IMG/VR virus record: IMGVR_UViG_3300028590_000028
Coordinates: 1 to 47,903 of that record
Strand: one strand, 5' to 3'
Length of the DNA stretch: 47,903 nucleotides
DNA from: a virus
The position numbers and the translations under genes are program-made. A model generated the notes under the pieces. The model worked only from the letters and a program-made list of their open reading frames with translations. It searched no databases and was not told where the DNA came from. Numbering within the stretch: position 1 is the first letter of the stretch; every line of letters begins with the position of its first letter. Positions 7,406 to 46,249 of the stretch are shown piece after piece.

Positions 7406-7422
7406 GAAATCACATCACGCCA

Positions 7423-8408: not shown

Positions 8409-8420
8409 TCTGAACCACCC

Positions 8421-10572: not shown

Positions 10573-10833
10573 ATGCTCAAGACCCCTCCCGTCGACCTTG
10601 AAATCAAAAGGCTCGTAGCCAACAGCCCTCTATCTCTCAGCGAGATCGCCCTCAAGGCAGGTGTCCCCTACAAACCCCTCTGGCGGTTCATCTCGGGGGC
10701 CTCGTCGTCCCTGAACGCGGTTTCCGCGGAGCTGGTCTACTACTTCTTCTGTGGCCGCAGTTTCAGCGAGCCCGGGAAGCCGATTCGCCGTGCGCCGTTC
10801 ACCACCCGTCGCGGAGAGGAGCGTGCAGCATGA
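10573..10833 (+). CDS. small HTH regulator, 86 aa
   Basis: S-L-S-E-I-A-L-K-A-G-V-P-Y-K-P-L-W-R-F-I-S-G is a compact XRE/Cro-like helix-turn-helix (residues 22-43). The C-terminal tail is basic. ATG 10573 puts the 5' end 17 bases after the candidate -10, so the mRNA would be nearly leaderless; ATGs at 10432 and 10534 are upstream of or inside the promoter and less likely. A role as repressor acting on the palindrome at 10504-10521 is inferred. The stop overlaps the methyltransferase start (ATGA). Confidence 0.68.
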   Translation: MLKTPPVDLEIKRLVANSPLSLSEIALKAGVPYKPLWRFISGASSSLNAVSAELVYYFFCGRSFSEPGKPIRRAPFTTRRGEERAA

Positions 10834-21506: not shown

Positions 21507-21781
21507 TGAACCCCACCGACATTTTCCCCGACACCCCGGAAGTCACCGACGCCCACCGCCGCAGCCTCGCGTTCAGCAACGCCCTCTGCCTGCGCGAGTG
21601 GCTCAAGACCGCCCGGACTCCGGTCACCCTGAAGCGGGCCATCCTCGTCGAACTGGAACGCGGCAAGGACCGCATCCGGGAGACCGAGATCGTCCACAAG
21701 CTGGTCGTCGCGCTCCAGCGGGCCGAACGCAAGGAGATCGGAAAGCGGATCAAGAATCACCTGAAGAATACACGTCAATGA
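21506..21781 (+). CDS. hypothetical basic helical protein, 91 aa
   Basis: Unrecognised, all helical with alternating Arg/Leu/Glu (residues 25-90). Overlaps the polymerase stop (TGATG) and its own stop overlaps the HNH start. Position suggests a polymerase accessory, with no motif to confirm it. Confidence 0.6.
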   Translation: MNPTDIFPDTPEVTDAHRRSLAFSNALCLREWLKTARTPVTLKRAILVELERGKDRIRETEIVHKLVVALQRAERKEIGKRIKNHLKNTRQ

Positions 21782-22473
21782 AGAAGACCCGACGAGGAAA
21801 GTCCCCCACCCCCATAGGTGCGAAATTCGGCATGTTGACGATTTTGAGCGAGGCGGAAAAACCGGAGGCTCACCGCGGGAACGATACTAGACACGTGCTT
21901 TGCTTGTGCGATTGCGGCAATAGAAAGAGGCTGTCTTTTGCCTCAATAAAACGCGGAGGTACTACCTCTTGTGGGTGTTTCCACACGAAAGTCCTGCGGG
22001 ATCGTAGCACCACCCACGGCATGACTAAAACCAAATCTTACGGAATATGGGCGGCCATTAAAAGGAGATGCTACAACCCAAACACCCGGAGTTTCAAAAG
22101 GTATGGAGGCAGAGGGATTACCATGTGTGACAGGTGGAAGGATTCATTTGAAGCCTTCTTCAAGGACATGGGCGAACGCCCCGAAGGGAGGACCTTGGAC
22201 CGCAAGGACAACGACGGCCCTTACTCCCCCGAAAATTGCCGATGGGCTACCCCTCAAGAGCAAGCATACAATCGGGAACGATCACTGAAGATAACCGCCT
22301 TCGGAAAAACTAAAACTACTTTGGAATGGGCTTCTGAATATGGGATAAGTGTCCAGCTAATTCGGGACCGGAGGAGCTATGGATGGCCTGATGAAGCGGC
22401 AGTTTCACTTCCTCCAAAAAGAGGGGTGAGTGCTAAAAACATGGATAAGAGGAGGTCCATGTGGAACTCCTGA
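21778..22473 (+). CDS. HNH endonuclease (large phage type)
   Basis: 231 residues. G-A-K-F-G-M-L-T-I-L, C-D-C-G, T-S-C-G-C, W-A-A-I-K-R-R-C-Y-N, Y-G-G-R-G-I-T-M-C-D-R-W, D-M-G-E-R-P, L-D-R-K-D-N-D-G-P-Y-S-P-E-N-C-R-W-A-T are the ordered landmarks of this zinc-containing HNH family. The C-terminal segment after residue 175 is an HTH-like target-recognition tail. Likely a free-standing homing-type nuclease. Codons such as AGA, AGG, ACT and TTA are commoner than in neighbours. The same family recurs at 28364. Confidence 0.9.
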   Translation: MKKTRRGKSPTPIGAKFGMLTILSEAEKPEAHRGNDTRHVLCLCDCGNRKRLSFASIKRGGTTSCGCFHTKVLRDRSTTHGMTKTKSYGIWAAIKRRCYNPNTRSFKRYGGRGITMCDRWKDSFEAFFKDMGERPEGRTLDRKDNDGPYSPENCRWATPQEQAYNRERSLKITAFGKTKTTLEWASEYGISVQLIRDRRSYGWPDEAAVSLPPKRGVSAKNMDKRRSMWNS

Positions 22474-28363: not shown

Positions 28364-29092
28364 ATGAAGGAAATCAAACGGAGGAAATGGGTCGACCACA
28401 CCGGGGAACGCTTCGGCAAGCTAACTATCATCCGAGACGCCGAACCCCACAACAACGGTATAAGACTCACCCGCCGTGTGGTCTGTAAATGCGACTGCGG
28501 TGAGGAACACGAGATCTACCTTCGCAGCCTGAAGCCCGGTCGAATCTACGGATGCAAATGCTTCCGGGCCGAAAAGCAATACACCCACAGGATGTCCCTA
28601 ACGAAGACCTACAGAGCTTGGTGGGGGATGATCTGCCGAGGGAATGGGTCCACCGCGAAAAAGTATTACTTCGATAGAGGCATTCGAGTATGCGACCGAT
28701 GGCTGAAGTTCGAGAATTTCTTCGAGGATATGGGCGAGCGTCCCGAAGGGCTTTCTTTGGATCGGATCGACTGGTCAAAGAACTACGAACCCGGCAACTG
28801 CCGATGGGCCACGAGCAAAGAACAGGCGCGTAATAAGCGAAGCAATCGACCTGTCACCATGCCTGACGGGTCCTTGAGGTTCATCCCTGATTTAGCCGAG
28901 AAATATGGAGTTCCCAAGAATACGATCTCATACAGGTTGAAGATCGGCATGGATATTATGGAAGCGCTTACAATCCCGGTATTCCAAGGTCCCAGGCTCA
29001 AGGATCGGAAAGCATCCAGCACCCCTGAGCGTAAGGCGGACGATTGCTGCCCTCCGCTTTCTTCAGAGTGTCGAGATCCAGAACTGCCTTGA
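28364..29092 (+). CDS. HNH endonuclease (large phage type)
   Basis: 242 residues. G-E-R-F-G-K-L-T-I-I, C-D-C-G, Y-G-C-K-C, T-Y-R-A-W-W-G-M-I-C-R-G-N, R-G-I-R-V-C-D-R-W, D-M-G-E-R-P, L-D-R-I-D, N-C-R-W-A-T-S-K-E-Q-A-R-N follow the same order as the nuclease at 21778. The C-terminal HTH-like part ends about residue 212; the last 30 residues are low complexity and overlap the 3' end of the convergent gene at 28998 by 95 bases, suggesting the original stop was lost or the insertion truncated a boundary. Confidence 0.88.
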   Translation: MKEIKRRKWVDHTGERFGKLTIIRDAEPHNNGIRLTRRVVCKCDCGEEHEIYLRSLKPGRIYGCKCFRAEKQYTHRMSLTKTYRAWWGMICRGNGSTAKKYYFDRGIRVCDRWLKFENFFEDMGERPEGLSLDRIDWSKNYEPGNCRWATSKEQARNKRSNRPVTMPDGSLRFIPDLAEKYGVPKNTISYRLKIGMDIMEALTIPVFQGPRLKDRKASSTPERKADDCCPPLSSECRDPELP

Positions 29093-29594
29093 CCGAGGTC
29101 GCGCAGCCGCAAGCCCGGCAGGCATTCAGTCCGCCCTCCTCGATCGGGATCACCTTGGAGATCGCCTTGAGGACCGCATTGCAGCCACGGCAGCCCGTCC
29201 CCAGGGTGGTGTGCATTGGGCAAGCCTGGCAGATCGCTAACCGGCGCTCCCGTTCAACGGTGTCCACGAACTTCCGGTCTTTGACTGCCTGAAGCACGGT
29301 GCGGAGGAACCGGTTGACCGTGGCCATCGTGAGAAGGGGATTCTCAGAAGCCGCCTTCACCGCCCCGCCGCACCACGGCTCCCCGTGGCCCGACTGCCGG
29401 CAGATCGCGTCGTCGAGCACATCGGAGTCCGGCATCGGGAGACCATTGGCGTTGAGGTGCGCGGCGATCCGTTGCTTCAGCGACTTCGCGTAGGGGGCCT
29501 TCAGTTCGATCCCGGTCTCCGGGACGACGTATTTCCATCCGCCCGGGGGGCTTTCGAAGTCCTGGATGATGGCGAGTTTCTTCGGTTCACTCAT
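28998..29594 (-). CDS. hypothetical phage protein with Cys-rich region, 198 aa
   Basis: N-terminal 60 residues are mixed, the middle has I-C-R-Q-S-G-H-G-E-P-W-C-G-G, and residues 135-165 hold C-Q-A-C, C-R-G-C and C-R-A-C-G-C, two probable zinc sites. This Cys-pair layout (Q-A-C-P then G-C-x-G-C) resembles a phage family of unknown function. Last gene of the virion operon; its start overlaps the stop of the large protein gene (ATGA). Confidence 0.62.
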   Translation of the reverse strand: MSEPKKLAIIQDFESPPGGWKYVVPETGIELKAPYAKSLKQRIAAHLNANGLPMPDSDVLDDAICRQSGHGEPWCGGAVKAASENPLLTMATVNRFLRTVLQAVKDRKFVDTVERERRLAICQACPMHTTLGTGCRGCNAVLKAISKVIPIEEGGLNACRACGCATSVKAVLDLDTLKKAEGSNRPPYAQGCWMLSDP

Positions 29595-32500
29595 TGGTTA
29601 AGTCTTTCCCCGCGTTCCTGACGCTCGATTTCCTTTTCATTCCTGAGTGCGGCCCACTTGGCTTTCTCTTCCTCAAAGCTGCCAACGGTAACCCCGCCGC
29701 CCGCCATCATGAGAATGGCCGCCAGGGTTCCACCTACAGGGCCGCCTTCTTCATAGACCTGATACATGTCGTTCAGGATGATCATCGACGTGACCTCATC
29801 CAGAGCGGTAACGATCGTCCGGGGCTTCCCGCCATAATATTCACCCTTCCACGTATCCCACAGGAAGCCGACGGTGAGCGCCCGCTTGGTCCCAAGGAAC
29901 CGCAGCATGTCATTCGCCTTTTCTTGCGGCGTGTACACCTTGATTTCACCCGCCTCCCTGTCCTGAACCCCGCCCCTGACCGATCGGTAGAAAGCTCCGG
30001 CAAACTGCTGGAGACCGGAGCCAACATCCACCATCAGGTTCTTGGAAATTCGGACCTTCCCGAAGTCCTTGCTCCACGGATTGAGAACGACCCCAGTATC
30101 CTCCGGGTCATCGTCATCCGCCTTACCGAAGGCAAGGGCGAGCAGCGCATAGATGGCCGCACGTCCGGTAACCGATTTGCCATAGAATCCGGCGATCTGC
30201 TTCCGGGCGTCCGCGGACATCGGGCCAGACCACAGTGGGTAAACCGAGAGCGCTTGGACACGGGAGAGGTAGAACCTCATTGCGAGGGTCATCGTCTGGA
30301 GCGCCGGCATGAAAGACTCAAGCGACCTCACGGCACCTCGACCGGTTCCGATCATTACGGCCTTGGCCAGCGCCTTGCCATCATCCATCGAGACTGTCTC
30401 ATCCGGCATGGAAGCGATCATGGCATCCATCAGCGTTGCCCGTGCATGATTGGTCATCGCCCGCTGGGCTCGATCGAGGGCTTGCAGCAACGGCTTCTGG
30501 GCCACGCTGACCCCGAGGAGGCCTGCGATCTTGGCACCAGAGAGGCCGACGGCCGCAGCAAGGACCGGGTTCGAAGCGATCCATGCAATCTTGGCACCCG
30601 CGAGAGTTGGCCAAATCCACCATGGGATCTTGTCGAGAAGGTTGGCCGCCGGGATGTCCTCCGTGGAAATCCGTGCGGAGTCGAAGGGTGAAGCAAACTT
30701 CAGGCCGTAGGCCTGATCGTAAGCTGCGTTCGGGCGGTGCATGATCTCGTCGAACAAGGCCGCCTCATACTCCGCACTTCCGAAGGCCCGGGCACCTTGT
30801 TTGAGCATGCTGAGGAAAGCCGATTCATTGGCCCGGGCTTCTGCGCCCCGGGCACCGGGAAGCAGCTTCTTCATGTCCTCCGTGATGGACGCCATGGTTG
30901 CGCCACCAAGGTTACGGAACAGAACCCCGAAGTCGCCCCCAAGAGTGGTGACCTTCAGAAGGTTGCCCCCGCTGCGGATATTGTAAGCGAGCTTCTTCGA
31001 GAAGTTGGCGTTCGTGATCGCGTGCTCGATGAGCATCTCGTTGTAGGCAGCCTTGAGCTTCTCCAACTCAAAGCGGGCCTTCACGAGTTCCGAGTTCTTC
31101 AATGGCGTTGGCTTGGCCTTCGGGGAGAAGTCCTTTTCGCGCATCCGTCGTTCCAGTTCGACCTTGCGGTTTTTGATGGACGCAAGCTGGCGGGCGAGAC
31201 GTGCGGCGTCCGTGGCACCGGATTCCCGTGCCATCTCCTTCCTGGCGTCCTGAATGCCCTTCAGCCGGGCATTTAGATCCGAGATGTTAGGAGACCATGC
31301 TGAAGAGAACGTGGTCCGGGGCCTCGAAGTGAGTCCGGCGGCCTTGAGTTCCTCTGCCGTCTTAATCCGTCGTTCCAAGGATTTCTCCGCAATCTTGATG
31401 CGGTCTTCTTCGGACAGCTTCTTATCGCCGAAGGCTTCCTCGTAGTCCTTCCGGAGTTGATCGAGTTGTTCCTTCAGCGTTTCGGCTTCCTCATCGTATT
31501 CGACCGGAACCGGGGAGTTCTCGGCTCGACGTTTGCCGCTGTCCAAGGCGCGTTGAAGCTCCTCGATCTCATTTTGCATCCGCCGCTTGATCGCCCCGAG
31601 AGTCGATTTGATCTGGCGTGCAGGGTCGGTAACTCGGATCCCGCTTTCCTTGAGAAGTTTCCGGAACTCTTTCTCCAGTTCACGGATTTCTACGTCCTGT
31701 TCGCCTCGCTGCGAGCCCGTCTTCTTCGGAGGCTTCCCGGACTTCACGTCGAGAATCTTCAGCGCGATGCGCTCCAAGCTACGGATGCGGTTAAGCTCCT
31801 TCGGAACCTCCTTGTCCGAAGGCAAGGTGACCTTACCATAGCCGGTGAAATCGGTAGCCACTTGCTCACGGGTGAGCCCCGGAAAGAGGGGAGCAAGGTC
31901 GTCGAATACAGCGTTCAGCACCTTGTTGCCACGAAGGCCTGCCACCACATGGGCGCGGGCCAGAGCCCAGATGTCTTCCCGCGAAGGGGTGTCTCCTTCC
32001 GGAGTAATGCCGTCGAGGACTTCCTGCCTCGATGGGTTGCGGGTGGCGGTTCCGCTCTCCAACGATTCCGATGCTTCCAGGTAGATTTCGTTGGCCTTGT
32101 TGAAAACGTGTCCCGCCAATGGTTCCGCGAAATCTCCGAAAGTGTCGATCAGCCGGGACGTAAAATCCGGAAGGCTGAGTTCCCGGTCCACCAACCACTC
32201 GGATGCCACGGTGGCGAGGTCTTCAACGTCTTGGGAGTCTTCAGGGGAAAGCTCCTCCTGAGCCAGGAACTTGAACTTCCCCTTTTCAGCCAGCCGGGCT
32301 TTCGCTTCGTCGATCTTCGGCTGGAGCTTCTCCTTGATCCTGGCCCGCGACTTCGGATCGCGGCCTTTGGCGCGAAGCTTCTTTTGAGCGTCCTCGACTT
32401 CCTTGGTGAGACGGTCGATCATCCCCCCAAGTTCCTTGTTCTCGGCTTCCAAAGAGTCCGCACGCTCCTGCGCCTTCTGGAGCTTCAGAGCCAGATCAAT

Positions 32501-35500
32501 GGCCTGCTGCCGTTCCTTCTCCGTGAGCTTCTGGGGCTTTTCCGAGTGCTTGTTCTTGGCGGCGAGAGCACGGTTGAGGACCGTTGCCAGAGAGTAGTCC
32601 TGATGCACCAGCATCTTCCGTGCTTGCAAGGACAGACCGGAAGCCGAACCTGCGGCGTCAGCGTAGACCAGGAGGTTATCGAAATCCTCCTGCGCGGACA
32701 CCATGGCCGCCTGCGCGTTCTTTCGGTCGCCTTCCGTTAGGGTTTGAGGAAGGGCGTTCAGGGTCGAGTAAGCGGCATCGACCACCTGTTGACGACGGAT
32801 CTTCTCGTGGAGGAGGAGCGCGTGCTCGTCTGGTGTGAGTGCGCGGGGCGCATTTTGAAGAAGGGAGTTCAGCAAGTCACCGCCTGCCGTACCTGGCTTC
32901 CCGGCGGCCCGGTGCGCTTGTTCGGCTGCCAGCGCCCGGTCCCACGACACCTGATTGGTTGTGGCCGGAGCAACGCCACGAGGAGGGAGACCGTATCGAG
33001 CACGATCGGCGTCCGTGATGGCGTGCTTCAGTCCCGTCGGAGCTTCAGGATCGTATGGAGCGTCGAAATCCGGGGCTGAAGACTCCGGTTCCAGAGGAGT
33101 CGGGGTCTCCGGGGGCGGTGACTCTTCGGCATCCGCGAGCACGGGTTCCTCGGTGGCAGCAGGGATTTCAGCCGGTGCCTCTTTGGCCACGGTGTCCGAT
33201 GCTGGCGCGTTTTCGATGACTTCTGGGATGACCTTACTACTAGTAAGGCCATCTGCCGTTGCCGGAATTCCGGCATCGAGGTTCCGTGTCACCAGTCGGT
33301 CGAAGACCGCCCGCATCTCAGGTGTCACGCGGACGTTGACCGGCGACCCGGCGAGCGACTCGTAGATGCCCTTGAGCCAGTTCTCGATCTTGGCGAAGAC
33401 CTTTGCGAGCCGGGAGTCCGGTGCCTTGCCGTCGCGGAGGTAGCGCTCGAACCCGCGGGCGAACTTCTCCTCGGCGTTCTTGGTCCACACACCATCCTCG
33501 GCACCCGCCCAGCGTTCGGCCACCTCGATGTCCTCCACCGTCATCCCGGCAGGAGGTGCCGTCTTGTCGAACAGCGTCCGGCGGGCAACGTGCGAGAGTT
33601 CGTGGAGTCCGGTCGAAACGTCCGGGTTGGTCAGGCCGCGCAGCAGCATGTCACCATTCTCAAGGACCTCGAAGGAACCTTTGATACCTTGCGGTACAGA
33701 AGCTTCGCCCTCCATGGAGAGGCCTTGGCCCGGCGTCCCGCCACGGGTCAGCCGGATGCGGGACGTATCGAGGCCCATCGACTGCACCAGGGCGTCCGTG
33801 ACGTCAGCCTGCTCGTCGGTCAGGTCGAAGGTGTCCTTGAGCCGGTCGCGGGAATAAAGGGTGGGATCGGAGTCCGGCGAAGGGGTGATCGGTTCAACGC
33901 CTTCTGAGGCCGGAATTTCGGCTCCAGTAGTAGGCCCCGGGGTGATCTGTCCGGCCACTTCCGGCGGAACTCCCCTATTGCTTCCCAGATCACTTTCCGT
34001 TCCTGCTGCCGGTGCCGCCGTTTGGACTTCCGGAAGCACGCCATCTTGCGTTGTAGGCGTCCCAAGGATCGCACTGCCCGGATCAATGCCAACAGGAGCT
34101 TGAGATCCTTCTTCATCGGTAACAATTTCTACGGGTTCAAAGGCCTCCGTAACCGTTTCAGCGGGAGTCTCGGCCAACGCGGCGGCCGTCCTCGGCGCGT
34201 GCTGGACGATGTTCATCGCGACGTCCACGCCGCCACCGATGGCCGCGCCGACCTTGAAGGCCTGTGTCGCTTGCTCCCATGCGTCCGCGAGCGAGGTGTC
34301 CGGGTCCGCCTGAAGAAACGCCCCGAGAAGCTGGTCAATGCCTTCCTCGGCACCTTCACCAATGGTGGAGGCGGCAACGGTGCCCGCGAACTTGCGGAGT
34401 TCGGGAGACTTGGCGACCTCCCGGATGCCGCGGTCCCGGGCCATCTGGAGCAGTGCTCTCACAGTGACGTCGTCTGCCGCTTGGCCGGCGGCGAAGCGCT
34501 CCACGCCGCCCCCGGCTCCGGTGCCGAACATCGAGGTGATGATGGCCGTCGAAAGCCCTGCTTTCACGGCCTTCTCGCGGGCCTCTTCCTCGGTCGCCCC
34601 GTTGGCCCGTTCTTCAGCGAAGGTGAGACCGGCCGACTGCGTGCCTGCGGTTGCAAAGGTTCCGAGGGCCGCAGCCGTCTTCCCGAACGCCGCGAAGCCG
34701 CGACCGGTGAGAATCTGGGCACCGATCGGCAGCAATTCCTCGACCGCGGCACCGGCAAGTCCGGTGTCCGGGAGGCCTTGGTTGATGGTTGCCGCGGTGG
34801 CCGATGACTCGGCTGCCGCATCTCCGGCGGAAGTGATTCCCATGGCCCCGAGGGTGCCGAGCGTCTGGGTGGCCAGCTTGTTGCCCGAAAGCACCACCTT
34901 GCCCGCGATCCCTTCGAGGAAGCCGGGGTCGACGGTCTTCTCGTAGTCGAGAACGAACTGCGGGCTGCCGACGTCCGTGCGTCCGGTTTTCGCGGCCCAC
35001 TCGGAAGGGGGCACCACGCGGTCGGCGAACAACTGGGCCACCCCGAGCACCCCTGCCCGTTGCCCGGTGTTCGACGCTTCCGCCGCGGCCTCGTAGGCTG
35101 CGGTCTTCTGGGCGGCGATCTCCGTGGCAAGCTGGGGAATCTGGCTCAGGGCCGCCGCCTTGATCTCAGGCGTGGTGTCGGTCGCCTCGATGGCCGCCTT
35201 CGCGGTGTCCGGGTTGAGCCACACCGGGCTGCCGGGGTTCGGAAGCAGTTCACCATCGGAGAGAGTCCGGACGGTCTCATCCTTGGCCCAGGTGCGGTTC
35301 TGGTTGCCGAGGTCCGACCACACGGCGGCCACCTCGTCGTCCGAGAGGTTGTTGGCCTGCTGGAAGTCGTGGAAGATCTTCTGGGTCGCCTTCTTGTCGA
35401 TGACCCCGTTATCCGGGACGTCATCCATCCGGGACCCCAGCTTCTGTCGAAGGGCGGTTGCGCCTTGGCTGATTGCTCCGGTGAATTCGTCAAGGAAATC

Positions 35501-35800
35501 TCCCTTCACCTGCGCCTCCATCAGCGGGAGATCCCAATCGCCGTCTTCCTTGCGCCGGATGCCCTTGTCCGAAGCCCCTTGCAGCGCGGCCGTCGCGGAA
35601 CCGAACAGCCCAGCGTCCTGCAACCGCTTGGTCAGGTCGGCACGGGCATCGGGACGGGCGGCTTTCGGAGTCTGTGGAACTTCCGTTCCACGGGGAACAT
35701 CTTGTTCCACGGGGTCCTCGACCAAGGTGGCAGAGGCGGGATCGAACCCGGTATCCGGCTCGTCTTCAAGCAGGGTCGCGGTCGTCGGGTCGAATGCCAT
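29591..35800 (-). CDS. 2069-residue polyvalent ejection protein with zincin-type metalloprotease motif
   Basis: The largest gene in the window. It opens M-A-F-D-P-T-T-A-T-L-L with a second F-D-P-A-S-A-T-L-V-E-D-P copy. Residues 1-450 are helical/Ala-Gly rich. H-E-L-S-H (733-737), with E-x-F-A-R-G-F about 40 residues on, matches zincin metalloproteases embedded in phage polyvalent proteins. Residues 1000-1600 are long charged coiled coil. The C-terminal third has hydrophobic segments (I-P-W-W-I-W-P-T-L-A-G and V-L-A-A-A-V-G-L), as in large ejected internal proteins of short-tailed phages. Likely injected with DNA, and may cleave host or virion proteins. Role is inferred from family resemblance. 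Confidence 0.8.
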   Translation of the reverse strand: MAFDPTTATLLEDEPDTGFDPASATLVEDPVEQDVPRGTEVPQTPKAARPDARADLTKRLQDAGLFGSATAALQGASDKGIRRKEDGDWDLPLMEAQVKGDFLDEFTGAISQGATALRQKLGSRMDDVPDNGVIDKKATQKIFHDFQQANNLSDDEVAAVWSDLGNQNRTWAKDETVRTLSDGELLPNPGSPVWLNPDTAKAAIEATDTTPEIKAAALSQIPQLATEIAAQKTAAYEAAAEASNTGQRAGVLGVAQLFADRVVPPSEWAAKTGRTDVGSPQFVLDYEKTVDPGFLEGIAGKVVLSGNKLATQTLGTLGAMGITSAGDAAAESSATAATINQGLPDTGLAGAAVEELLPIGAQILTGRGFAAFGKTAAALGTFATAGTQSAGLTFAEERANGATEEEAREKAVKAGLSTAIITSMFGTGAGGGVERFAAGQAADDVTVRALLQMARDRGIREVAKSPELRKFAGTVAASTIGEGAEEGIDQLLGAFLQADPDTSLADAWEQATQAFKVGAAIGGGVDVAMNIVQHAPRTAAALAETPAETVTEAFEPVEIVTDEEGSQAPVGIDPGSAILGTPTTQDGVLPEVQTAAPAAGTESDLGSNRGVPPEVAGQITPGPTTGAEIPASEGVEPITPSPDSDPTLYSRDRLKDTFDLTDEQADVTDALVQSMGLDTSRIRLTRGGTPGQGLSMEGEASVPQGIKGSFEVLENGDMLLRGLTNPDVSTGLHELSHVARRTLFDKTAPPAGMTVEDIEVAERWAGAEDGVWTKNAEEKFARGFERYLRDGKAPDSRLAKVFAKIENWLKGIYESLAGSPVNVRVTPEMRAVFDRLVTRNLDAGIPATADGLTSSKVIPEVIENAPASDTVAKEAPAEIPAATEEPVLADAEESPPPETPTPLEPESSAPDFDAPYDPEAPTGLKHAITDADRARYGLPPRGVAPATTNQVSWDRALAAEQAHRAAGKPGTAGGDLLNSLLQNAPRALTPDEHALLLHEKIRRQQVVDAAYSTLNALPQTLTEGDRKNAQAAMVSAQEDFDNLLVYADAAGSASGLSLQARKMLVHQDYSLATVLNRALAAKNKHSEKPQKLTEKERQQAIDLALKLQKAQERADSLEAENKELGGMIDRLTKEVEDAQKKLRAKGRDPKSRARIKEKLQPKIDEAKARLAEKGKFKFLAQEELSPEDSQDVEDLATVASEWLVDRELSLPDFTSRLIDTFGDFAEPLAGHVFNKANEIYLEASESLESGTATRNPSRQEVLDGITPEGDTPSREDIWALARAHVVAGLRGNKVLNAVFDDLAPLFPGLTREQVATDFTGYGKVTLPSDKEVPKELNRIRSLERIALKILDVKSGKPPKKTGSQRGEQDVEIRELEKEFRKLLKESGIRVTDPARQIKSTLGAIKRRMQNEIEELQRALDSGKRRAENSPVPVEYDEEAETLKEQLDQLRKDYEEAFGDKKLSEEDRIKIAEKSLERRIKTAEELKAAGLTSRPRTTFSSAWSPNISDLNARLKGIQDARKEMARESGATDAARLARQLASIKNRKVELERRMREKDFSPKAKPTPLKNSELVKARFELEKLKAAYNEMLIEHAITNANFSKKLAYNIRSGGNLLKVTTLGGDFGVLFRNLGGATMASITEDMKKLLPGARGAEARANESAFLSMLKQGARAFGSAEYEAALFDEIMHRPNAAYDQAYGLKFASPFDSARISTEDIPAANLLDKIPWWIWPTLAGAKIAWIASNPVLAAAVGLSGAKIAGLLGVSVAQKPLLQALDRAQRAMTNHARATLMDAMIASMPDETVSMDDGKALAKAVMIGTGRGAVRSLESFMPALQTMTLAMRFYLSRVQALSVYPLWSGPMSADARKQIAGFYGKSVTGRAAIYALLALAFGKADDDDPEDTGVVLNPWSKDFGKVRISKNLMVDVGSGLQQFAGAFYRSVRGGVQDREAGEIKVYTPQEKANDMLRFLGTKRALTVGFLWDTWKGEYYGGKPRTIVTALDEVTSMIILNDMYQVYEEGGPVGGTLAAILMMAGGGVTVGSFEEEKAKWAALRNEKEIERQERGERLNQ

Positions 35801-35830: not shown

Positions 35831-36940
35831 TCAATCCCATTGACCGCCGCCCTTGTAGGTTTTCACGTTGCCATTGGCGTCCCGGTAGCGCTTGCCCACG
35901 ACGAACTTGTCTTCGGGAGATGCGGCCGGAGGGGTCGCCGGAGCTTCTTCCTCCTTGGCACCGTACTGGGCGGCGTCCCAGACTTCCCCGCGCTTTTTCT
36001 TCGCGGCGTCCGAAAGCCCGGTGACCTTGTTGACGTAGGCCGAACGGTCCATGTTCCGGGCACTCGCCAGCTCGGACTCGAACTTGTTGGACTCGTAAAG
36101 CCGGGCGTCCTCGTAGCCGGGATCAGCCTTGACGTCCTTCTTCTCGTCGAACTTCTTGCCCTTCTCCGCCATCTTGCGGCTGCGGAGAACGTCGACCTGG
36201 TTGGGGAAAGCGGCAGTGTCGACCACGTGCTCCTCGGCGATCTTGCGGGCCGGGTCGTCCTTGGGGCGGCCCTCCATGCGGATCGCCTGCTTCTCCTTGG
36301 CCATCTCGACCGAGTCGTCCTTCTTCTGCTGCCGGGTGCGCTCGTAGGCAAGGTTCCCGGCAGCCGCGAAGTCGTAGTCGCCATCAGGCAGATTGAAGCG
36401 GTCGCGCTCCTCCGGGCTCAGGACATTGAGCCACGTGGCGTTCTTCATCCTCGTGGTCGTGAGTTCCTTGCGGCGGGCAAAATCTTCGTCCCGGCGGGCC
36501 TTCAGATCGGCTTCCTGTACGCGATTGTCGTAGGCCTTGTCATTGGCCACCATGATCGCCGTGACGGCGTCATCGTCACGCACGTTCGGCGGGAGCTGCT
36601 GGTAGAGCGCCGTCCGGGCCGTCTGGTAGTCCTCGGCCATCGGGTCGAGCAAGGCGATCTGCTTGAGGAAGTCGCCGCGTTGGGCCTTCCAGTCCTGCTT
36701 CTCTTGATACTCGGCATTATCCCGATCCCACTCGACCTGTCGCCGTCCCATCAGCAATCGGTCTTCCCGGCTGCGGGCCAGCCGTGACGAGGCGTCCGCG
36801 AGGGCCGCTGAACTCTCGGCCCCGATCTTGGAATTGCCGTAGCGGGCAATCACACTCTGGCTGTCCGCCTGATCGAAGTAATTCGTCCGGGCAGCAGAGG
36901 GTGCAAGGCTTTCGGCAGCAGTTTCGAGAGTGGAGGGCAT
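35831..36940 (-). CDS. probable internal virion protein, 369 aa
   Basis: Almost fully helical with charged heptad repeats (residues 45-330) and an A-P-A-T-P-P-A-A linker before a small C-terminal beta piece (G-K-R-Y-R-D-A-N-G-N-V-K). Size, composition and position between two large helical proteins resemble the internal virion proteins of podoviruses; no enzyme motif. A 30-base gap separates it from the large gene downstream. Confidence 0.55.
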   Translation of the reverse strand: MPSTLETAAESLAPSAARTNYFDQADSQSVIARYGNSKIGAESSAALADASSRLARSREDRLLMGRRQVEWDRDNAEYQEKQDWKAQRGDFLKQIALLDPMAEDYQTARTALYQQLPPNVRDDDAVTAIMVANDKAYDNRVQEADLKARRDEDFARRKELTTTRMKNATWLNVLSPEERDRFNLPDGDYDFAAAGNLAYERTRQQKKDDSVEMAKEKQAIRMEGRPKDDPARKIAEEHVVDTAAFPNQVDVLRSRKMAEKGKKFDEKKDVKADPGYEDARLYESNKFESELASARNMDRSAYVNKVTGLSDAAKKKRGEVWDAAQYGAKEEEAPATPPAASPEDKFVVGKRYRDANGNVKTYKGGGQWD

Positions 36941-36943: not shown

Positions 36944-37666
36944 TCAGACTCGGTTCCGTTCCCACCATTGGCGACGGCGATCGAAGGCGGATCCTGAAAC
37001 GCCGAGCCGGGCGGCCCGGTCTTTCAACTGGGCGATCTCAGCTTCCGAGGAAGACTTCCCGAGGGCGTCATCGAGAGTCCGGCGAGCGGTGAGGTCCTGG
37101 TCCTTGCGGAGAATGTTTTCGGGCTGTTGGACGCCGAGGCGATTGGCGGAATCAAGCCCGCGTTGGAGGATGGTGTCATCGCCCGTTCGCTGGCCTTCAA
37201 GAATGTCGAGGGCGGCGGTGTTCCGGGACTCCGGCATCACGGTGGCCCCGACGCCCTCCGATTGGGGTGCCGATCGTCGTTTTTGAATCTCTTCCTCGGT
37301 CTGAAGTCGTTTCAATTCGGCCGCACGTTCATTGTCCATGGCGGCCTGTTGGCGGGCGTCAAGGTTGCGTAGGAGGCCGGAGTTGAACTCGTTCCGGCGA
37401 CGGATGCCGCCCGGCGAGAACCCCTCTTCATTGGCCTCCCGCTGCACGTCGAGCAGGGCGAGGGCCGAACGGGAGTCACCACGGCGGGCTTGGCGTTTCA
37501 GGATTCGGTTCGCCAGGTTGTAGTTCTCGGCACGCTGGCGATACTGGCCGCCTTCGGACGAGTTCACCTGTCCCTCGGTGCTGGTGGGACGGGTGGCCGC
37601 AGTGCTGCCGAACGGGCGGCGTTGCAGCTCGTCCAGTCGGTTGAGTCCTCGGAATTGGGTGGCCAT
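36944..37666 (-). CDS. probable internal virion protein, 240 aa
   Basis: Helical, Arg/Gln-rich (Q-Y-R-Q-R-A-E-N-Y-N-L-A-N-R-I-L-K-R-Q) with S-A-L-A-L-L-D-V-Q-R-E-A-N and a flexible N-terminus. It is spaced by 3 bases from the next gene. Probably an ejected or scaffold-type virion component, by position and composition only. Confidence 0.5.
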   Translation of the reverse strand: MATQFRGLNRLDELQRRPFGSTAATRPTSTEGQVNSSEGGQYRQRAENYNLANRILKRQARRGDSRSALALLDVQREANEEGFSPGGIRRRNEFNSGLLRNLDARQQAAMDNERAAELKRLQTEEEIQKRRSAPQSEGVGATVMPESRNTAALDILEGQRTGDDTILQRGLDSANRLGVQQPENILRKDQDLTARRTLDDALGKSSSEAEIAQLKDRAARLGVSGSAFDRRRQWWERNRV

Positions 37667-37668: not shown

Positions 37669-38346
37669 TTATCGGAAGGTTCGGATGCCGCGGATGCCGC
37701 GGCCGTTGGGCCGGATGTTGGGAATCGGGGCTGCCCCGCCACGTTGGTTGTTGCCTTCGCGTTCTTCGAGACGTTTGACAGCTTTATTCCGATAAATGGA
37801 TGCGTTTCCTGAATCACCCCGCTCACCCCACATAACGGAAAACATCGCATGTTTCAAAGCCTCATAGCTTGGGCAGAGGGTGCGATTCGTCGTCCCAGCA
37901 GGAAGGGAGTTCTCGTTCGGGGCGAGGTCGTAGAGGCGGGCTGGGGCCCGCATGCAGAGGGCCACGATCGTCAGGGTGTCGGATTCGATCCCGGTGACCT
38001 TGTAGGTCCGGAGGTCGTCATCATTGAGCCCTTGGTCGATCAGCCGGACGTCCGAGCCGCCGTGGACGTCGATCTCCCCCGGACCCTCTGGCCCGAATTC
38101 GAAGTCCTCCATCGACACAGGTGCCGGGTAGCCGTCGAGATGTGCCCCGAGAATCGAAGCCATGTTGGAGGGGAGGGTGATGACGTTGTTGACCGAGGTC
38201 AGCGTTTGTCGAGCCTTACAAAAAGCCCACTTCCCGGATTCGAGCATCATAATATCCGCCTCGGTAAGTATCCGAAGGAACGTCTCGTCATCCCCCGGGG
38301 CGATCTGCGCCTGATAGAGTTCACGGAGTTGGGCGACGGTCGGCAT
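37669..38346 (-). CDS. adaptor/tail-tube-like virion protein, 225 aa
   Basis: N-terminal Q-L-R-E-L-Y-Q-A, F-L-R-I-L-T-E-A-D-I-M-M-L-E-S-G-K-W then V-I-T-L-P and a beta-rich centre resemble the head-tail connector proteins of short-tailed phages (the L-x-E-A-x-x-x-L-L-x-S-G-K-W pattern). The C-terminus is basic with G-I-R-G-I-R. Assignment is by pattern memory, not a motif of known chemistry. Confidence 0.5.
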   Translation of the reverse strand: MPTVAQLRELYQAQIAPGDDETFLRILTEADIMMLESGKWAFCKARQTLTSVNNVITLPSNMASILGAHLDGYPAPVSMEDFEFGPEGPGEIDVHGGSDVRLIDQGLNDDDLRTYKVTGIESDTLTIVALCMRAPARLYDLAPNENSLPAGTTNRTLCPSYEALKHAMFSVMWGERGDSGNASIYRNKAVKRLEEREGNNQRGGAAPIPNIRPNGRGIRGIRTFR

Positions 38347-40201: not shown

Positions 40202-42439
40202 TCAGAAGGGTGCCTTGACCTCGAACTTCGCCGGATTCGGCCACCGGGCTTCGATGGCTTCCTTGAGTTCATCGGTCAGCAGGTGGTCGGTGTGATTGAG
40301 ATACCGGGCGTCCCCGAAGTCGGTGGTCTGGGTCCGGTGGCCGTTGCACGGCATCCCGTCTTTCGGGAACAGGTTAAAAACCGCGAGTTCCAAGGCCATC
40401 TTGCTCCAGCAGCCGAACTTCTCGAAGACCTCCATCACTTCCGCCCGCCGGAAGACGTACGGGGTGTGGGTCGAGTAGTGGAACGGTTCCGTGACGCCTT
40501 CGGCCGCCAGAAGGTCGAGCATCCGAAGGTAGCCTTGCTTCCACGGGTTCGAGTTCTCGATCATCGACCGCCGGAGTTCCGGGGTGACCGGGCCGAAGTG
40601 CAGGGGCTTCTCGACGTCCGCCCACGAGGTGTCCTTGAGGAACAGGATGTCGTCGTTCATCCAGAGGGACTTCTCGGCGATCGCGAGGCCCTGCATCAGG
40701 GCGGACTCGTAGCCCCAGCATTCAAGAAACTTTATTCGTGAATTCTTGAGCAGGCGATGCGGCTCCGCGGTGCCGAGGATGAAGATCGGGCAGTCCTTGT
40801 CCTCGAAGTGCTGCTCCAGTGAGCGTAGGCTATAGTAGAGAGACTTCCCCCACTTGTCCTTCATCTGGTGCCACGGGTACAGGATCGCCCGGTCGTATTG
40901 GATCCGCTGCGACCGGAGGCCCGTCAGGTTGGCCGCCGGGATGCCGCCCTCGCGATGCCGGGTGACTGGGACCTTGATCCACCGGTCGGGTGCCGGCTTC
41001 CAGTCGCCGTAGCTGCCGGGCTTGTGATGCCAGATTTCCGGGACGACCACGGGGCCTTTCTCCCCAAGCCATGCTCCCCACCACCCGAAGGTCGAGTTGC
41101 TGATGACGTGGGCATCACAGGCGACCATGGTGCGGAGGCCGTCGATGGCTTCCTGCGGCGGCATGACCGTGACGTCGGGCAGCTTGCCGAAGGTCTTCCG
41201 GCACCACTCGGGGTCATCGGAGACGATGAAGAAATGGCTGGCGGGAATCTTGGCCCGCATCCAGTCGATCGCATTCTGATAGTAGCCTTCCGTGCAGACA
41301 TTGAGCCGGGGGTGGCCAACGTAATCCCCGCGGCGGACTTGCACGGCTACGGGGATTTTCCCTGCCGGGACGTCGAGTGGCAAGGGGTCGAGCTTGAAGA
41401 TTTCGCGGATCTCGTCGGCGACATCGGCGAAGCATTCCTCGGCCTGATAGGGGTTGGCCACCGCACAGACCTTGTGCCCTGTGTCCGTGATCCGGTGCAT
41501 CGACTTGTCGACCATCGCGTAGTTGCCTTGCCCAAGTTTGGAGCAGACGACCGGGACCTCGCGGAACGGGAGGATGCCGAAGCCGAAATGCTTCAGCCCG
41601 AACTCCCGGTAGCCGGTGTCCTGATACTGCCAGCGCAACGGGATGCCGAGCTTCCGGGCGATATTGATGCCGGCGGCCATCTCGAACAACTGGTTGCCAA
41701 GGCCGCAGTTCTTGACGAACTGGAGATAGAAGACCTTGTCCTGGTGAGGTGTGTGTCCGGGGTGGACGCTGTAGCGGAGGCCGTCGGGCTTCGTGTGAAG
41801 CATCCCGGACGCCTTGAATTCCTCGTAATCGGCTACCTTGTCAGTGCCCCAGAAGTGACGGAACCATGCAGGCTCGTGGTCCTTGCCGCCCCGGTTCCAT
41901 TCGGAGGAGAGCTGGTTGAAGGGTATGCCCATTGCCCGAGCGTGGGAAGCCACAGCATTAAACCAGTGTTGATCGAGGAAGAACTCCACCATACGGAGTT
42001 CACACATGGCCTCGCGGAGTTTGTTTGCTCCCTTGCGATCGACGATCCAAATCCCCGCATTCGAGTAGCGGTGTGGTCCAAAAGGCGATGGCCCATAGGT
42101 TTCCCGAAACCAGTCTTCCCATTGCGCCTGATGCTCCGCGTGATAACAGTCGGTTGCCATCGAGAGGCCCGGCTTGAGCGGTGGAAGCGGGGCCTCCGGG
42201 TGGACCCACACATCGAGGTCCATGTAGATCATGAAGTCGGCCTTCCCGGCGAGGAACGACTCGACCATATCGAGTTCCGCGAACTTGGCCGCCGGGTAGC
42301 CCTTCTCCTTGGCAACATTGTCGTCCCAAGTCACGACTTTCAAATCGTGCCGCTTTGCATAGGCCTCGATCGTCGGGACGCACAGGCGCATCCAGTCGGT
42401 CTTATTGCCGTATTTAAGGAGGTGGAGTTCAATCTTCAT
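40202..42439 (-). CDS. three-domain glycosyltransferase with central alpha-1,2-fucosyltransferase-like domain, 745 aa
   Basis: Residues 1-225: GT-A-type transferase with the metal-binding D-L-D-V-W-V (74-79). Residues 240-470: N-C-G-L-G-N-Q-L-F-E-M-A-A-G (244-257), V-Q-V-R-R-G-D-Y (366-373), H-F-F-I-V-S-D-D and S-N-S-T-F-G-W-W-G-A-W (447-457) match the GT11 alpha-1,2-fucosyltransferase motifs. Residues 510-745: a second GT-like domain with C-W-G-Y-E-S-A-L-M-Q-G and W-M-N-D-D-I-L-F (593-600), like Stealth-type proteins. Substrates and acceptor unknown. Fusion of these three activities in a phage virion operon is unusual. Confidence 0.82.
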   Translation of the reverse strand: MKIELHLLKYGNKTDWMRLCVPTIEAYAKRHDLKVVTWDDNVAKEKGYPAAKFAELDMVESFLAGKADFMIYMDLDVWVHPEAPLPPLKPGLSMATDCYHAEHQAQWEDWFRETYGPSPFGPHRYSNAGIWIVDRKGANKLREAMCELRMVEFFLDQHWFNAVASHARAMGIPFNQLSSEWNRGGKDHEPAWFRHFWGTDKVADYEEFKASGMLHTKPDGLRYSVHPGHTPHQDKVFYLQFVKNCGLGNQLFEMAAGINIARKLGIPLRWQYQDTGYREFGLKHFGFGILPFREVPVVCSKLGQGNYAMVDKSMHRITDTGHKVCAVANPYQAEECFADVADEIREIFKLDPLPLDVPAGKIPVAVQVRRGDYVGHPRLNVCTEGYYQNAIDWMRAKIPASHFFIVSDDPEWCRKTFGKLPDVTVMPPQEAIDGLRTMVACDAHVISNSTFGWWGAWLGEKGPVVVPEIWHHKPGSYGDWKPAPDRWIKVPVTRHREGGIPAANLTGLRSQRIQYDRAILYPWHQMKDKWGKSLYYSLRSLEQHFEDKDCPIFILGTAEPHRLLKNSRIKFLECWGYESALMQGLAIAEKSLWMNDDILFLKDTSWADVEKPLHFGPVTPELRRSMIENSNPWKQGYLRMLDLLAAEGVTEPFHYSTHTPYVFRRAEVMEVFEKFGCWSKMALELAVFNLFPKDGMPCNGHRTQTTDFGDARYLNHTDHLLTDELKEAIEARWPNPAKFEVKAPF

Positions 42440-42782
42440 TCGCGATCCACTTTCGAAGGGACTTCCAGAAACCCTGCCTAACAGGAGCCTCCGGTTCTTT
42501 TTCCGGGAAAACCTTCAGTTTCAGATTCTCCGCATCCAATTCTTCCTCGGTCTTCATGCCTTTCTCTTTTTCGAGGTATTCGATCCAGTGTTCCTTGAAG
42601 CTGTAGAGGCCCTCCCCCACCCCATGCCCACATCCGGGGCAATCCCATTTGACACCACGGCAAGCCTCTCCATGAACATCATAGTGGTCGGGGATCAGGT
42701 CTTCTTTCGTGAGGGCATACTTCGACCCGCACTTGTAGCACTCCCACTCCAGTTCGTCTTGGGGTCCTGAGATCAGTCTCAT
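42429..42782 (-). CDS. zinc-ribbon protein, 117 aa
   Basis: C-Y-K-C-G-S-K-Y near residue 15 and C-P-G-C-G-H-G-V near residue 48 form a two-knuckle zinc ribbon. The C-terminal part is a charged helix ending W-K-S-L-R-K-W-I. It overlaps the fusion transferase start by 11 bases. Function unknown. Confidence 0.62.
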   Translation of the reverse strand: MRLISGPQDELEWECYKCGSKYALTKEDLIPDHYDVHGEACRGVKWDCPGCGHGVGEGLYSFKEHWIEYLEKEKGMKTEEELDAENLKLKVFPEKEPEAPVRQGFWKSLRKWIANED

Positions 42783-42987: not shown

Positions 42988-43355
42988 TTCAAACCTAAAC
43001 TGATCGCAACCGCTGCACCAAGAATCTGATGGAGTGCTTTAGTTCGATGCTCGGGAATTCGAGAGTCCCAATACTCAGACTCCAATGCTTTCCGAACCAC
43101 GCCATCCGTGGGGCTCGTGCGCTCGGATTCCGGTTTTGTGTGTCTTAGTAGGATCAGACGGAAGCAGCGGAAATTTTCGATTTTCTCCACTTCTTCCGGA
43201 GCGATCGGACCTTCCGCATAGATCGGTTCATTCTCTTCTTCATCCCAACCGATGGGTTGAATTGTATAACTCTTTTCCTTCAAGGAGGACTTCACACTTC
43301 CCGGTTCCCCGATGGGGGTGTCGAAGCCGCTCTCAATGATGTCGAAGTATTTCAT
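42984..43355 (-). CDS. hypothetical protein, 123 aa
   Basis: Unrecognised. Acidic N-terminus (Y-F-D-I-I-E-S-G-F-D-T-P-I-G), a charged middle with R-C-F-R-L-I-L-L-R-H-T-K, and helical end. ATG 43355 is chosen because it overlaps the FkbM-like gene stop. A TTTACCAA half-site lies just upstream (43360-43367), inside that gene. Confidence 0.55.
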   Translation of the reverse strand: MKYFDIIESGFDTPIGEPGSVKSSLKEKSYTIQPIGWDEEENEPIYAEGPIAPEEVEKIENFRCFRLILLRHTKPESERTSPTDGVVRKALESEYWDSRIPEHRTKALHQILGAAVAISLGLK

Positions 43356-44035
43356 GGTATTGGTAAATAAAGTGCATCGAACTGCGGGTCTCCCCACTTC
43401 GCGTTCGCCGGATAAAGCGCGGCCTCCCGGTAGCCGAGCGACCGGATCAGGTCATCGAGGCCTTCGACCGTGAAGCCGTTGGCTTCCAGACAGCCCTTGT
43501 TGAACTCCACGAAGAGAATCAGCTTGTGGCGGGTGATGGTGCCCGCCATGCCTGTAATCACACGAGGCTCGAAGCCCTCACAATCGAGCTTACAAAATTC
43601 TGGTGCCGGAAGATCCGGGAGATCGTCAAGCGCGTGGCACGGCACCGTCCACTCCCCGTCTTCCCGGATGCGGGAGGCCCCGAGATTGTCGTCCTGCCCC
43701 ATGATGACCGCGCCGTTGACGTCGGACCCCGCGATGTTCAGGCACAGGGCTTCCGGGCCGAGGTTGTGCTGGAGGCAGGCGAACGAGATCGGCATCGGTT
43801 CGATGGCGACCACGTAGCAGCCCCATCGCTGGTACTGGACGGCGTGAGATCCGATGTTCCCGCCGATGTCCCAGACGACACCCTTGCCCCGGACGAAAGG
43901 TTCGAGGAACCGCATGACGTGCGGATCGCTGACGATGTCGCCGTGCTGCTCGGCCCACCGGGAGAGGTGGCTGTCATGCTCGGCGACCCAGTAGTCGGTG
44001 CCGGGAACTACTACGATTCCAGTAGGTGGGGTCAT
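43352..44035 (-). CDS. FkbM-family SAM-dependent methyltransferase, 227 aa
   Basis: V-V-W-D-I-G-G-N-I-G-S-H-A-V-Q-Y (about 53-68) is the SAM-binding Gly loop, Y-V-V-A-I-E-P-M-P the acidic second motif, and K-L-D-C-E-G-F-E-P-R-V-I (about 150) the FkbM motif. These enzymes O-methylate sugars or polyketides. In this operon sugar methylation of a virion glycan is the likely job. Stop overlaps the next start. Confidence 0.85.
   Translation of the reverse strand: MTPPTGIVVVPGTDYWVAEHDSHLSRWAEQHGDIVSDPHVMRFLEPFVRGKGVVWDIGGNIGSHAVQYQRWGCYVVAIEPMPISFACLQHNLGPEALCLNIAGSDVNGAVIMGQDDNLGASRIREDGEWTVPCHALDDLPDLPAPEFCKLDCEGFEPRVITGMAGTITRHKLILFVEFNKGCLEANGFTVEGLDDLIRSLGYREAALYPANAKWGDPQFDALYLPIP
43360..43367 (-). 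promoter_or_regulatory. single TTTACCAA half-site
   Basis: TTTACCAA read on the minus strand lies five bases before the gene start at 43355, within the end of the FkbM gene. It equals one arm of the palindromes at 15742 and 24551. A single 8-mer could be chance. Confidence 0.25.
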
Positions 44036-44370
44036 TCCGGGATGATGACGTTGTAAAGGCTGATGAAAGCTTGTCCGTTCGCAGGGATGAATCCTTCGAT
44101 AGCTGGAACGTCCCCTTCCTCGTTCGACATGCCTACGTCAATACCGTATTCATCACTCAATCGAACTCGGAGGCTTTCCATCTCGTTCCACACGAAATTC
44201 GGGGAAGACGCCATGATGTGAACGAAGGGGATCGGGAGATCACACTCGAATTGATGCGTCTTCCCATCTCCTGAATCCCGAGTATCGAAACCCCATTCAC
44301 GGAGCTTCAAAACCGTGCTTCGGATTCCAGGGTTCAAGGCGGCGATCTGTTCTTCGGTTAATTGAGTCAT
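44032..44370 (-). CDS. hypothetical protein, 112 aa
   Basis: Unrecognised. Starts T-Q-L-T-E-E-Q-I-A-A-L-N-P-G-I, then alternating strands with an acidic/hydrophobic end (A-F-I-S-L-Y-N-V-I-I-P-E). Coupled to both neighbours by ATGA overlaps. Confidence 0.6.
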   Translation of the reverse strand: MTQLTEEQIAALNPGIRSTVLKLREWGFDTRDSGDGKTHQFECDLPIPFVHIMASSPNFVWNEMESLRVRLSDEYGIDVGMSNEEGDVPAIEGFIPANGQAFISLYNVIIPE

Positions 44371-45014
44371 GCCAGTATCCGGGTTATCTCTTCGAGGTTC
44401 TTGGTGATCGTGTCGTGCGACCAAAACTGCCAGACAAGCGGCGGCGGGCACTCCACAGAGGTATCCATCCAATAAAAGTCATCGCGGTGATTCAGCCAGC
44501 AGTGGTGGCCCATCGCATTCCACTCTGTGAACGTCGGCTGCGCCATGATGAACTCTTCGATCCCGACGCCGAAACGATGGAAGCAATGCTCCCGGATCGA
44601 CTGGAGGACGTGCCGCGGGAACATGAAGGGCTGTCGGCGCATGAACTCCGCAGGCGGCTCGGCACCATTGAAGTCCCGCATCACGTTCCACCACGTCTGC
44701 ATGGCCTCGGTCGCCAGCATCTCCGGCGTCCATGGCGTCATGAACCAGATCGGCTTGCCCTCCCGCATGAAGGACTCCGGGGTGACCGGCTCCACGAACA
44801 AGGTATCCGAATCGGTGACGAGAATGAAGTCGGCGTCCGTGTATTGGTCGGCGTGGAGCTTCACCACCTGTTGCCAGAGGTAGCCCTTCGGATGCTCGCC
44901 CTCGATCACCCGGACTTCCGAAAACCCGGTGCAGAACTTCTCGATGCTCTTGAGACAATACCTGTGATACTCGGCATCGTGGAGGCAGGTCTTGATCAGG
45001 ATGGCGGTCTTCAT
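44367..45014 (-). CDS. glycosyltransferase-like protein (GT-A type), 215 aa
   Basis: I-L-I-K-T-C-L-H-D-A-E-Y-H, F-I-L-V-T-D-S-D-T-L-F-V (DxD metal motif near residue 66-72), and W-F-M-T-P-W-T-P then R-Q-P-F-M-F-P-R-H-V-L are typical of small phage and bacterial GT-A proteins (DUF6492-like). The terminal W-N-A-M-G-H-H-C-W and W-Q-F-W-S-H-D-T also fit. Donor sugar and acceptor unknown. Confidence 0.72.
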   Translation of the reverse strand: MKTAILIKTCLHDAEYHRYCLKSIEKFCTGFSEVRVIEGEHPKGYLWQQVVKLHADQYTDADFILVTDSDTLFVEPVTPESFMREGKPIWFMTPWTPEMLATEAMQTWWNVMRDFNGAEPPAEFMRRQPFMFPRHVLQSIREHCFHRFGVGIEEFIMAQPTFTEWNAMGHHCWLNHRDDFYWMDTSVECPPPLVWQFWSHDTITKNLEEITRILA

Positions 45015-45555: not shown

Positions 45556-45584
45556 CTTCTATTTACAATTTTACAGGGCGTCAA
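45556..45584 (-). promoter_or_regulatory. candidate internal promoter with inverted repeat
   Basis: Reading on the minus strand, TTGACG (45584-45579) and 17 bases later TAGAAG (45561-45556). The same stretch contains CGCCCT...AGGGCG arms around an AT-rich centre, a possible operator. It lies in the 31-base gap between 45550 and 45580, the largest inside the right half of the minus-strand operon. The -10 is weak. Confidence 0.4.
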
Positions 45585-46249
45585 GGGCCGAAGGAATTTC
45601 GTTTGTCCGGATGCACTAACAGATTCGGATTCTTAATCAGGTCTTCTTCCCGGACTCCGAACGTCTGTGCATTCGTGTGAGTTTGTCTCACATTAAGGCC
45701 TGTCATCGTCAGGCCTGCACGGTAGATGACGCTTGGTATCGAAACTTCAGAAAAACAATCACGCATTTCCGGAGCACACCGAACGCACTCGTTCAAAGCC
45801 CTCTTAGAGAGTCTAAACACCGCCATTAACATGTGGTGCGTAGCCCATTCAGGGGCAAGACTGCGGAGGTAATTATCGGTCTTCGGGTTGCGCTTCCGAA
45901 TCATGGGAGCTACGAGGTCTGAAGGATCGTTCTCAAAATCGGAGAACATCGCCTTCCATCTCTCTTGCGCGGCGACCACGTCGCTCTCGATAAACCAAAA
46001 ATGGTCTGCCCGGACACCGAGATGCCGGGCTGCCGAGAACCCTACGGCGTCCGCGCCCCACCAGCACTTCATCCGGTAAGGCATCGTCGGGTCGGTCGGT
46101 AGCCAGTCCTCCCGTGGCTTGAAGCTGACCGCATGCCGGTGAGGCTTGTCATGAGGGGTCACGACATAGACCTCGGGATGCGCGGCCTTCAGGGCATCAC
46201 AGCGGAGCTTGTAACCGAGGTGGTCCGTCAGGATGACGACACTCCTCAT
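45581..46249 (-). CDS. glycosyltransferase-like protein, 222 aa
   Basis: S-V-V-I-L-T-D-H-L-G-Y-K-L then Y-V-V-T-P-H-D-K-P, D-H-F-W-F-I-E-S-D-V-V-A (about 84-95, DxD-like), R-K-R-N-P-K-T-D-N-Y and S-V-I-Y-R-A-G-L-T-M-T are GT-A-type landmarks, but the match is weaker than for the neighbouring transferases. Overlaps the upstream gene stop by four bases. Confidence 0.6.
   Translation of the reverse strand: MRSVVILTDHLGYKLRCDALKAAHPEVYVVTPHDKPHRHAVSFKPREDWLPTDPTMPYRMKCWWGADAVGFSAARHLGVRADHFWFIESDVVAAQERWKAMFSDFENDPSDLVAPMIRKRNPKTDNYLRSLAPEWATHHMLMAVFRLSKRALNECVRCAPEMRDCFSEVSIPSVIYRAGLTMTGLNVRQTHTNAQTFGVREEDLIKNPNLLVHPDKRNSFGP

Follow-up and report, generated by a model that had tools for sequence, protein, structure and literature searches.

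A single phage gene encodes a GT-A domain, a GT11 (alpha-1,2-fucosyltransferase-like) domain and a Stealth-like domain in one polypeptide. The gene lies in the window, by which we mean the whole stretch of viral DNA analysed (47,903 nucleotides, IMG/VR record IMGVR_UViG_3300028590_000028). We suggest, with moderate confidence, that this gene of the phage structural block yields a soluble enzyme that assembles a glycan in several steps, and that the enzyme's most likely acceptor is a virion protein. The domains, their folds, most of the catalytic motifs, the gene context and the conservation of the modules in other phages are established here. Within the collections and open-access literature that we searched, both the fusion and the modular family surrounding it seem to be undescribed, whereas GT11s of phages and viral glycan enzymes with several domains are already known.

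Three transferase domains in one chain

The fusion gene is a single open reading frame of 745 codons running from 42439 to 40202, and the protein has a mass of 85.8 kDa. It is divided as follows.

40202..42439, minus strand: fusion gene, 745 aa, GT-A, GT11 and Stealth-like domains
41792..42439, minus strand: domain 1, residues 1-216, GT-A fold, with D74-x-D76 and H195-xx-G198-xx-K201
40958..41734, minus strand: domain 2, residues 236-494, GT11 (alpha-1,2-fucosyltransferase-like), GT-B fold
40205..40897, minus strand: domain 3, residues 515-745, compact Stealth-like, with NDD at 595-597 and STHTP at 656-660

A sequence-only reading of this DNA had described one 745-residue protein with three transferase domains, leaving the strand unstated. 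That description holds, and every motif it quoted is present: GLGNQLF at residue 246, RRGDY at 369, SNSTFGWW ending at 454, and WMNDDILF, whose NDD occupies 595-597. The frame is not a chance one, because domain 2 matches Pfam GT11 (PF01531) with 82 bits (5.8e-23; curated cut-off 23.9) and a three-domain ortholog is 41% identical to the protein across 762 aligned columns. A long plus-strand frame (40868-42481) was rejected as the antisense shadow of the gene. The best 19-residue hydrophobicity mean (0.97) is too low for a membrane helix; the protein has no hydrophobic segment and is therefore taken to be a cytosolic enzyme.

Searches with the whole protein returned little. PHROGs, Pfam and NCBIfam hold no family that spans it, a scan of IMG/VR for close relatives gave no match (relatives came via alignments), and a single-sequence search of the PDB found only a chance match. 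Profile A1 gave only weak fucosyltransferase matches in the PDB (E about 0.035). In the AF2 model, the domain-1 and domain-3 blocks are mostly at 80-98 pLDDT, and the N-terminal half of domain 2 is poorly modelled (blocks of 30-60 pLDDT). With a pTM of 0.50, the model does not reliably position the three domains with respect to one another.

Domain 1 combines a GT-A fold with DxD (D74-L-D76) and HxxGxxK, the metal and donor pattern familiar from GT8, and its model aligns with the GT8 enzyme LgtC at Z 13.4. Both aspartates, together with H195, G198 and K201, are invariant in the domain-1 profiles of nine homologues. Two of the nine matched the GT8 profile PF01501 with E values no higher than 1 (5e-7 for the better one), and the domain of the window protein was not among them; Pfam gives domain 1 no match of its own, and none was found for it alone among 50,697 phage records. 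Its nearest solved structure is the first domain of A064R from chlorovirus PBCV-1 (Z 17.2 over 182 residues); the next rows outside Stealth structures stand at Z 13.5 and below. The sequence profile matches A064R weakly (E 0.016). Domains 1 and 3 show no likeness when compared by profile. Two other GT-like genes of the window were considered as relatives of domain 1 and the comparison was unconvincing.

On sequence and model, domain 2 is a GT11 with a GT-B fold, as the sequence-only reading had proposed: alongside the Pfam score, its model aligns with the GT-B fucosyltransferase POFUT1 (Z 12.4 over 214 residues, residues 232-469). NodZ is also among the Foldseek matches, and the phage glycosyltransferase family phrog_2644 matches the domain. 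The same reading had turned on the catalytic residues being kept in homologues, and they are: the RRxDY, SD, NS and WG positions are invariant when the domain is aligned with GT11s of phages and bacteria. Within HxRRxD the two arginines and the aspartate are invariant and RRGD is kept; the leading histidine is glutamine in the window protein and in its ortholog on contig L012.

GT11 by itself is common in phages. At least 573 IMG/VR stretches encode relatives, and 103 phage records match the fusion protein, mostly cyanophages, those listed matching through domain 2. These single-domain cyanophage enzymes share the GT11 family with domain 2, but most of those found stand alone as separate proteins. 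The window and L012 domains are sisters on a long stem of the GT11 tree, and their branch groups with alphaproteobacterial plasmid GT11s and a few viral ones, not with those of cyanophages. No GDP-mannose dehydratase was found in the window contig, which may be a fragment, so that its absence is weak evidence. Other phage GT11 fusions of 616-826 aa occur (L073 7128-9605; L074 7203-9572; L076 3203-5050), and their flanking parts match neither domain 1 nor domain 3.

Domain 3 had been read as a second glycosyltransferase-like domain carrying WMNDDILF. It is indeed transferase-like; it is not an ordinary second GT, since profile and model both relate it to Stealth enzymes. A seven-sequence profile matched human and zebrafish GlcNAc-1-phosphotransferase (9.4e-7 and 3.1e-5), mycobacterial CpsY and the fly homologue. 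The model aligns with Stealth structures over 202-223 residues, the Z scores running from 19.7 for GlcNAc-1-phosphotransferase (GNPT; rmsd 2.6, 216 residues) to 17.6 for CpsY. Because of these profile matches and model alignments we assign domain 3 as a compact Stealth-type domain of the GlcNAc-1-phosphotransferase/CpsY fold that lacks the spacers. With GNPTAB and CpsY it shares the fold, the NDD motif and the CR3 histidine: NDD 595-597 and H658 align with the GNPT NDD and the base histidine His-956 (residue roles from PMC11418123 and PMC10668966). It differs from them in its minimal size and in lacking two arginines. The phosphate-binding CR3 arginine (GNPT R986, CpsY R419), essential to phosphotransfer in CpsY (PMC10668966), is valine in the window protein and tyrosine in most relatives, and Arg-322 has no clear counterpart. 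In CR4, CLND/CIND becomes YLNH, with Leu-Asn kept and the aspartate lost. The Stealth CR2 profile PF11380 scored 12.6 bits (cut-off 39.4), and the highest score among the relatives was 27.1 bits, for L097. Since the CR3 arginine is lost, Arg-322 has no clear counterpart and the Pfam cut-off is missed, we call the domain only Stealth-related. It may transfer a sugar-phosphate or a plain sugar.

Orthologs and a modular family

A 740-aa ortholog with the three domains in unchanged order is encoded on L012, a 68-kb phage contig; its identity to the window protein is 36%, 51% and 39% for domains 1, 2 and 3 respectively. In at least nine further loci, sulfotransferase, methyltransferase or other modules are joined to the pair of domains 1 and 3, or to domain 3. 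Without GT11, the order is domain 1 then domain 3 in L013, L015, L100, L107, L108 and L110, and domain 3 then domain 1 in L098, L101 and L097, the last as two ORFs. A sulfotransferase module occurs in L013 and L100 (by Pfam) and in L014 and L110 (by inspection); Methyltransf_24 occurs in L097, L098, L100 and L101, DUF3431 in L013 and an Erv1/Alr domain in L098. Two genes upstream of the ortholog, L012 carries a second fusion (3809-5857) of Stealth-like, Gly_transf_sug (GT32-like) and methyltransferase domains.

When 84,980 species genomes were scanned, three bacterial loci were recovered, all of them Verrucomicrobiota to judge by the record titles; the scan depends on one short pattern and other phyla may also carry the family. 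Among the Verrucomicrobiota genomes sampled, 15 of 388 had at least a distant domain-3 match. Three of the phylum's genomes (L112, L113 and L117) encode proteins of 606-630 aa in which a distant Stealth-like domain is flanked by an N-terminal cysteine-containing region and a further C-terminal region. Judged solely by this kinship, the host of the window phage is probably a member of the Verrucomicrobiota. Several of the family's hosts in this phylum are environmental and nothing links the family to animals, so the suggestion that the glycan might mimic animal mucosal glycans found no support.

Some relatives are temperate-like or prophages, one of them in the genome of the named strain Haloferula luteola YC6886. 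In a metagenome-assembled genome labelled Akkermansia muciniphila (3.8 Mb), L107 encodes a protein with domains 1 and 3 (7041-8714). This gene sits among ordinary chromosomal genes without virion genes, with sugar-nucleotide genes nearby, and the protein is perhaps a cellular or domesticated member of the family.

Gene neighbourhood and candidate acceptors

The fusion gene is flanked by sugar-related genes upstream and virion-type genes downstream.

42429..42782, minus strand: small ORF with CxxC pairs, directly upstream of the fusion gene
43352..44035, minus strand: FkbM-type methyltransferase, upstream sugar cluster
44367..45014, minus strand: DUF6492, glycosyltransferase-like, upstream sugar cluster
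45581..46249, minus strand: GT2-like protein, upstream sugar cluster (weak match just under cut-off)
37669..38346, minus strand: podovirus portal-tail adaptor (T7 gp11-like fold), 225 aa, downstream of the fusion gene
36944..37666, minus strand: virion-module protein, L012 ortholog in matching order
35831..36940, minus strand: virion-module protein, L012 ortholog in matching order
29591..35800, minus strand: very large protein of putative virion type, 2069 aa

The end of the small ORF overlaps the fusion ATG by 11 bases; this overlap suggests that the two genes are probably coupled in translation. The model of the 225-aa adaptor (pLDDT 72, which is middling) has phage SU10 at the top of its Foldseek matches (8.6e-5) and aligns with portal-tail adaptors of short-tailed phages at Z up to 10.2. 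L012 and L097 each carry an ortholog of it downstream of their GT genes. The placement of the fusion gene in a virion operon, claimed earlier from the letters, is borne out because this neighbour is a podovirus-type tail adaptor among further virion genes. The 2069-aa protein is homologous to a large protein downstream of the L097 GT genes; it matches the uncharacterised large phage protein family phrog_9880 only in part. A PF03237 terminase search in the relatives was nearly negative, and PHROGs gave no name to the L126 and L127 head genes, whose assignments were made by inspection and are not used as evidence. Elsewhere the window holds three HNH endonuclease genes (3253-3954, 21598-22473 and 28364-29092).

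In the window, Ser runs were confined to antisense shadow frames, and no Ser-rich acceptor candidate was found in a coding frame. A literature search on serine phosphoglycosylation in Dictyostelium turned up no direct lead, and that idea does not count here as evidence. Elsewhere, homologous proteins of 385-466 aa with a Ser/Asp/Glu-rich stretch are encoded by six phages or prophages, at most about two genes upstream of the fusion genes.

L012 2169-3455: Ser/Asp/Glu-rich protein
L098 5132-6433: Ser/Asp/Glu-rich protein
L100 5276-6478: Ser/Asp/Glu-rich protein
L101 4632-6026: Ser/Asp/Glu-rich protein
L102 5225-6622: Ser/Asp/Glu-rich protein
L106 6166-7320: Ser/Asp/Glu-rich protein

The summed S, D and E fraction is 0.55-0.88 over 40 residues, in podovirus-like and siphovirus-like contigs alike. 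These proteins are possible glycosylation acceptors. The window contig, which ends at 47.9 kb, yielded no homologue of them.

Proposed function and alternatives

Viral enzymes of comparable build are known. PBCV-1 A064R (GT, GT and methyltransferase, 638 aa) is likewise a virus-encoded glycan enzyme with three transferase domains in one chain, and its three activities on the capsid glycan have been demonstrated in vitro (PMC9614988). Phage proteins related to ours likewise join a domain-1-type GT-A to methyltransferases. However, A064R comes from a eukaryotic algal virus and has neither a GT11 nor a Stealth domain. PBCV-1 A111/114R also has three GT domains per chain, one a fucosyltransferase, for the virion glycan (PMC7826918). 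Its three consecutive transfers are proposed, whereas those of A064R were shown biochemically; its fucosyltransferase was modelled on the H. pylori alpha-1,3-FucT and not on GT11, and no Stealth domain is described for it. Mycobacteriophages (Che8, Corndog and Myrna) glycosylate capsid and tail tube with GTs of their own (PMC12363180). These virion GTs are phage-encoded too, and are set apart by description: the GT-A, GT11 and Stealth architecture is not described for them in that paper.

We infer catalytic activity, sugars, order of steps and acceptor as follows. The fusion enzyme would work in the infected host cell and draw on host nucleotide sugars. The GT-A domain would attach one sugar, the GT11 domain would then probably add fucose or another GDP-donor sugar, and the Stealth-like domain would attach another sugar or a sugar-1-phosphate. 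Completion of the glycan may fall to the separate FkbM methyltransferase and the two other GT-like genes. The acceptor would most likely be a tail or head protein of the virion, as with A064R and the mycobacteriophages; a virion protein is the likeliest because of the gene's position in the virion block and because mycobacteriophages modify capsid and tail tube with their own enzymes. The GT11 score, the folds, the L012 ortholog and its synteny, the recombination of modules, the tail adaptor and the missing hydrophobic segment all speak for glycosylation of the virion. The glutamine in the GT11 motif, the two missing Stealth catalytic arginines, the poor N-terminal model of the GT-B domain and the chromosome-like setting of L107 speak against it. 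A wider proposal, which we offer as speculative and doubtful, is that Verrucomicrobiota phages run a glycan assembly line that shuffles GT-A, GT11, Stealth, sulfotransferase and methyltransferase modules within individual proteins and builds a sugar-phosphate-linked, fucosylated or sulfated glycan on the Ser/Asp/Glu-rich virion proteins.

Phage GTs beside tail genes could equally target host surface glycans, and surface-modifying GTs are carried by many phages. The enzyme might thus act on a host polysaccharide (O-antigen, capsule or exopolysaccharide) and block superinfection or re-adsorption of progeny, a possibility that we treat as the main rival, though rather unlikely. Stealth-like and GT11 relatives occur in bacteria, the relatives include prophages and temperate-like members, and Stealth enzymes such as CpsY make capsule polymers (PMC10668966). 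However, the fusion protein has no membrane segment, no flippase or lipid-linked GT was noticed in the window, and the gene, which lies upstream of that for the tail adaptor, belongs to the late structural block and is not near lysogeny genes; a search of the window contig for a tyrosine integrase was negative, weak evidence given that the contig may be a fragment.

It is improbable that some domains have lost catalysis and act in the virion as structural or carbohydrate-binding elements. The Stealth arginine replaced by valine (tyrosine in most relatives), the glutamine that opens the GT11 HxRRxD and the location in the virion block would fit such a role, but conservation of DxD, HxxGxxK, RRxD, NDD and the CR3 histidine over divergent homologues is hard to explain without catalysis.

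Glycosylation of hydroxymethylated bases in the phage DNA is very improbable: phage GTs are able to modify DNA (PMC9614988), and the window encodes C5-cytosine (10830-12347) and N6/N4 (14599-15738) DNA methyltransferases in the replication half of the contig, but the fusion gene lies in the virion block away from replication genes, and the window and five relatives, all fragments, yielded no member of the thymidylate synthase/dCMP hydroxymethylase family, which is not decisive. To our knowledge, neither GT11 nor Stealth is a DNA-glycosylating family.

Glycosylation of the virion thus remains the reading that we favour. Giant algal viruses are known to have multi-domain virion-glycan enzymes, and mycobacteriophages to glycosylate their virions; a phage family in which fused glycan-building modules recombine would link the two cases. 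Its Stealth domain is related to the human enzyme of lysosomal tagging, and the prophage relative in Haloferula luteola YC6886 opens the question to bench work.
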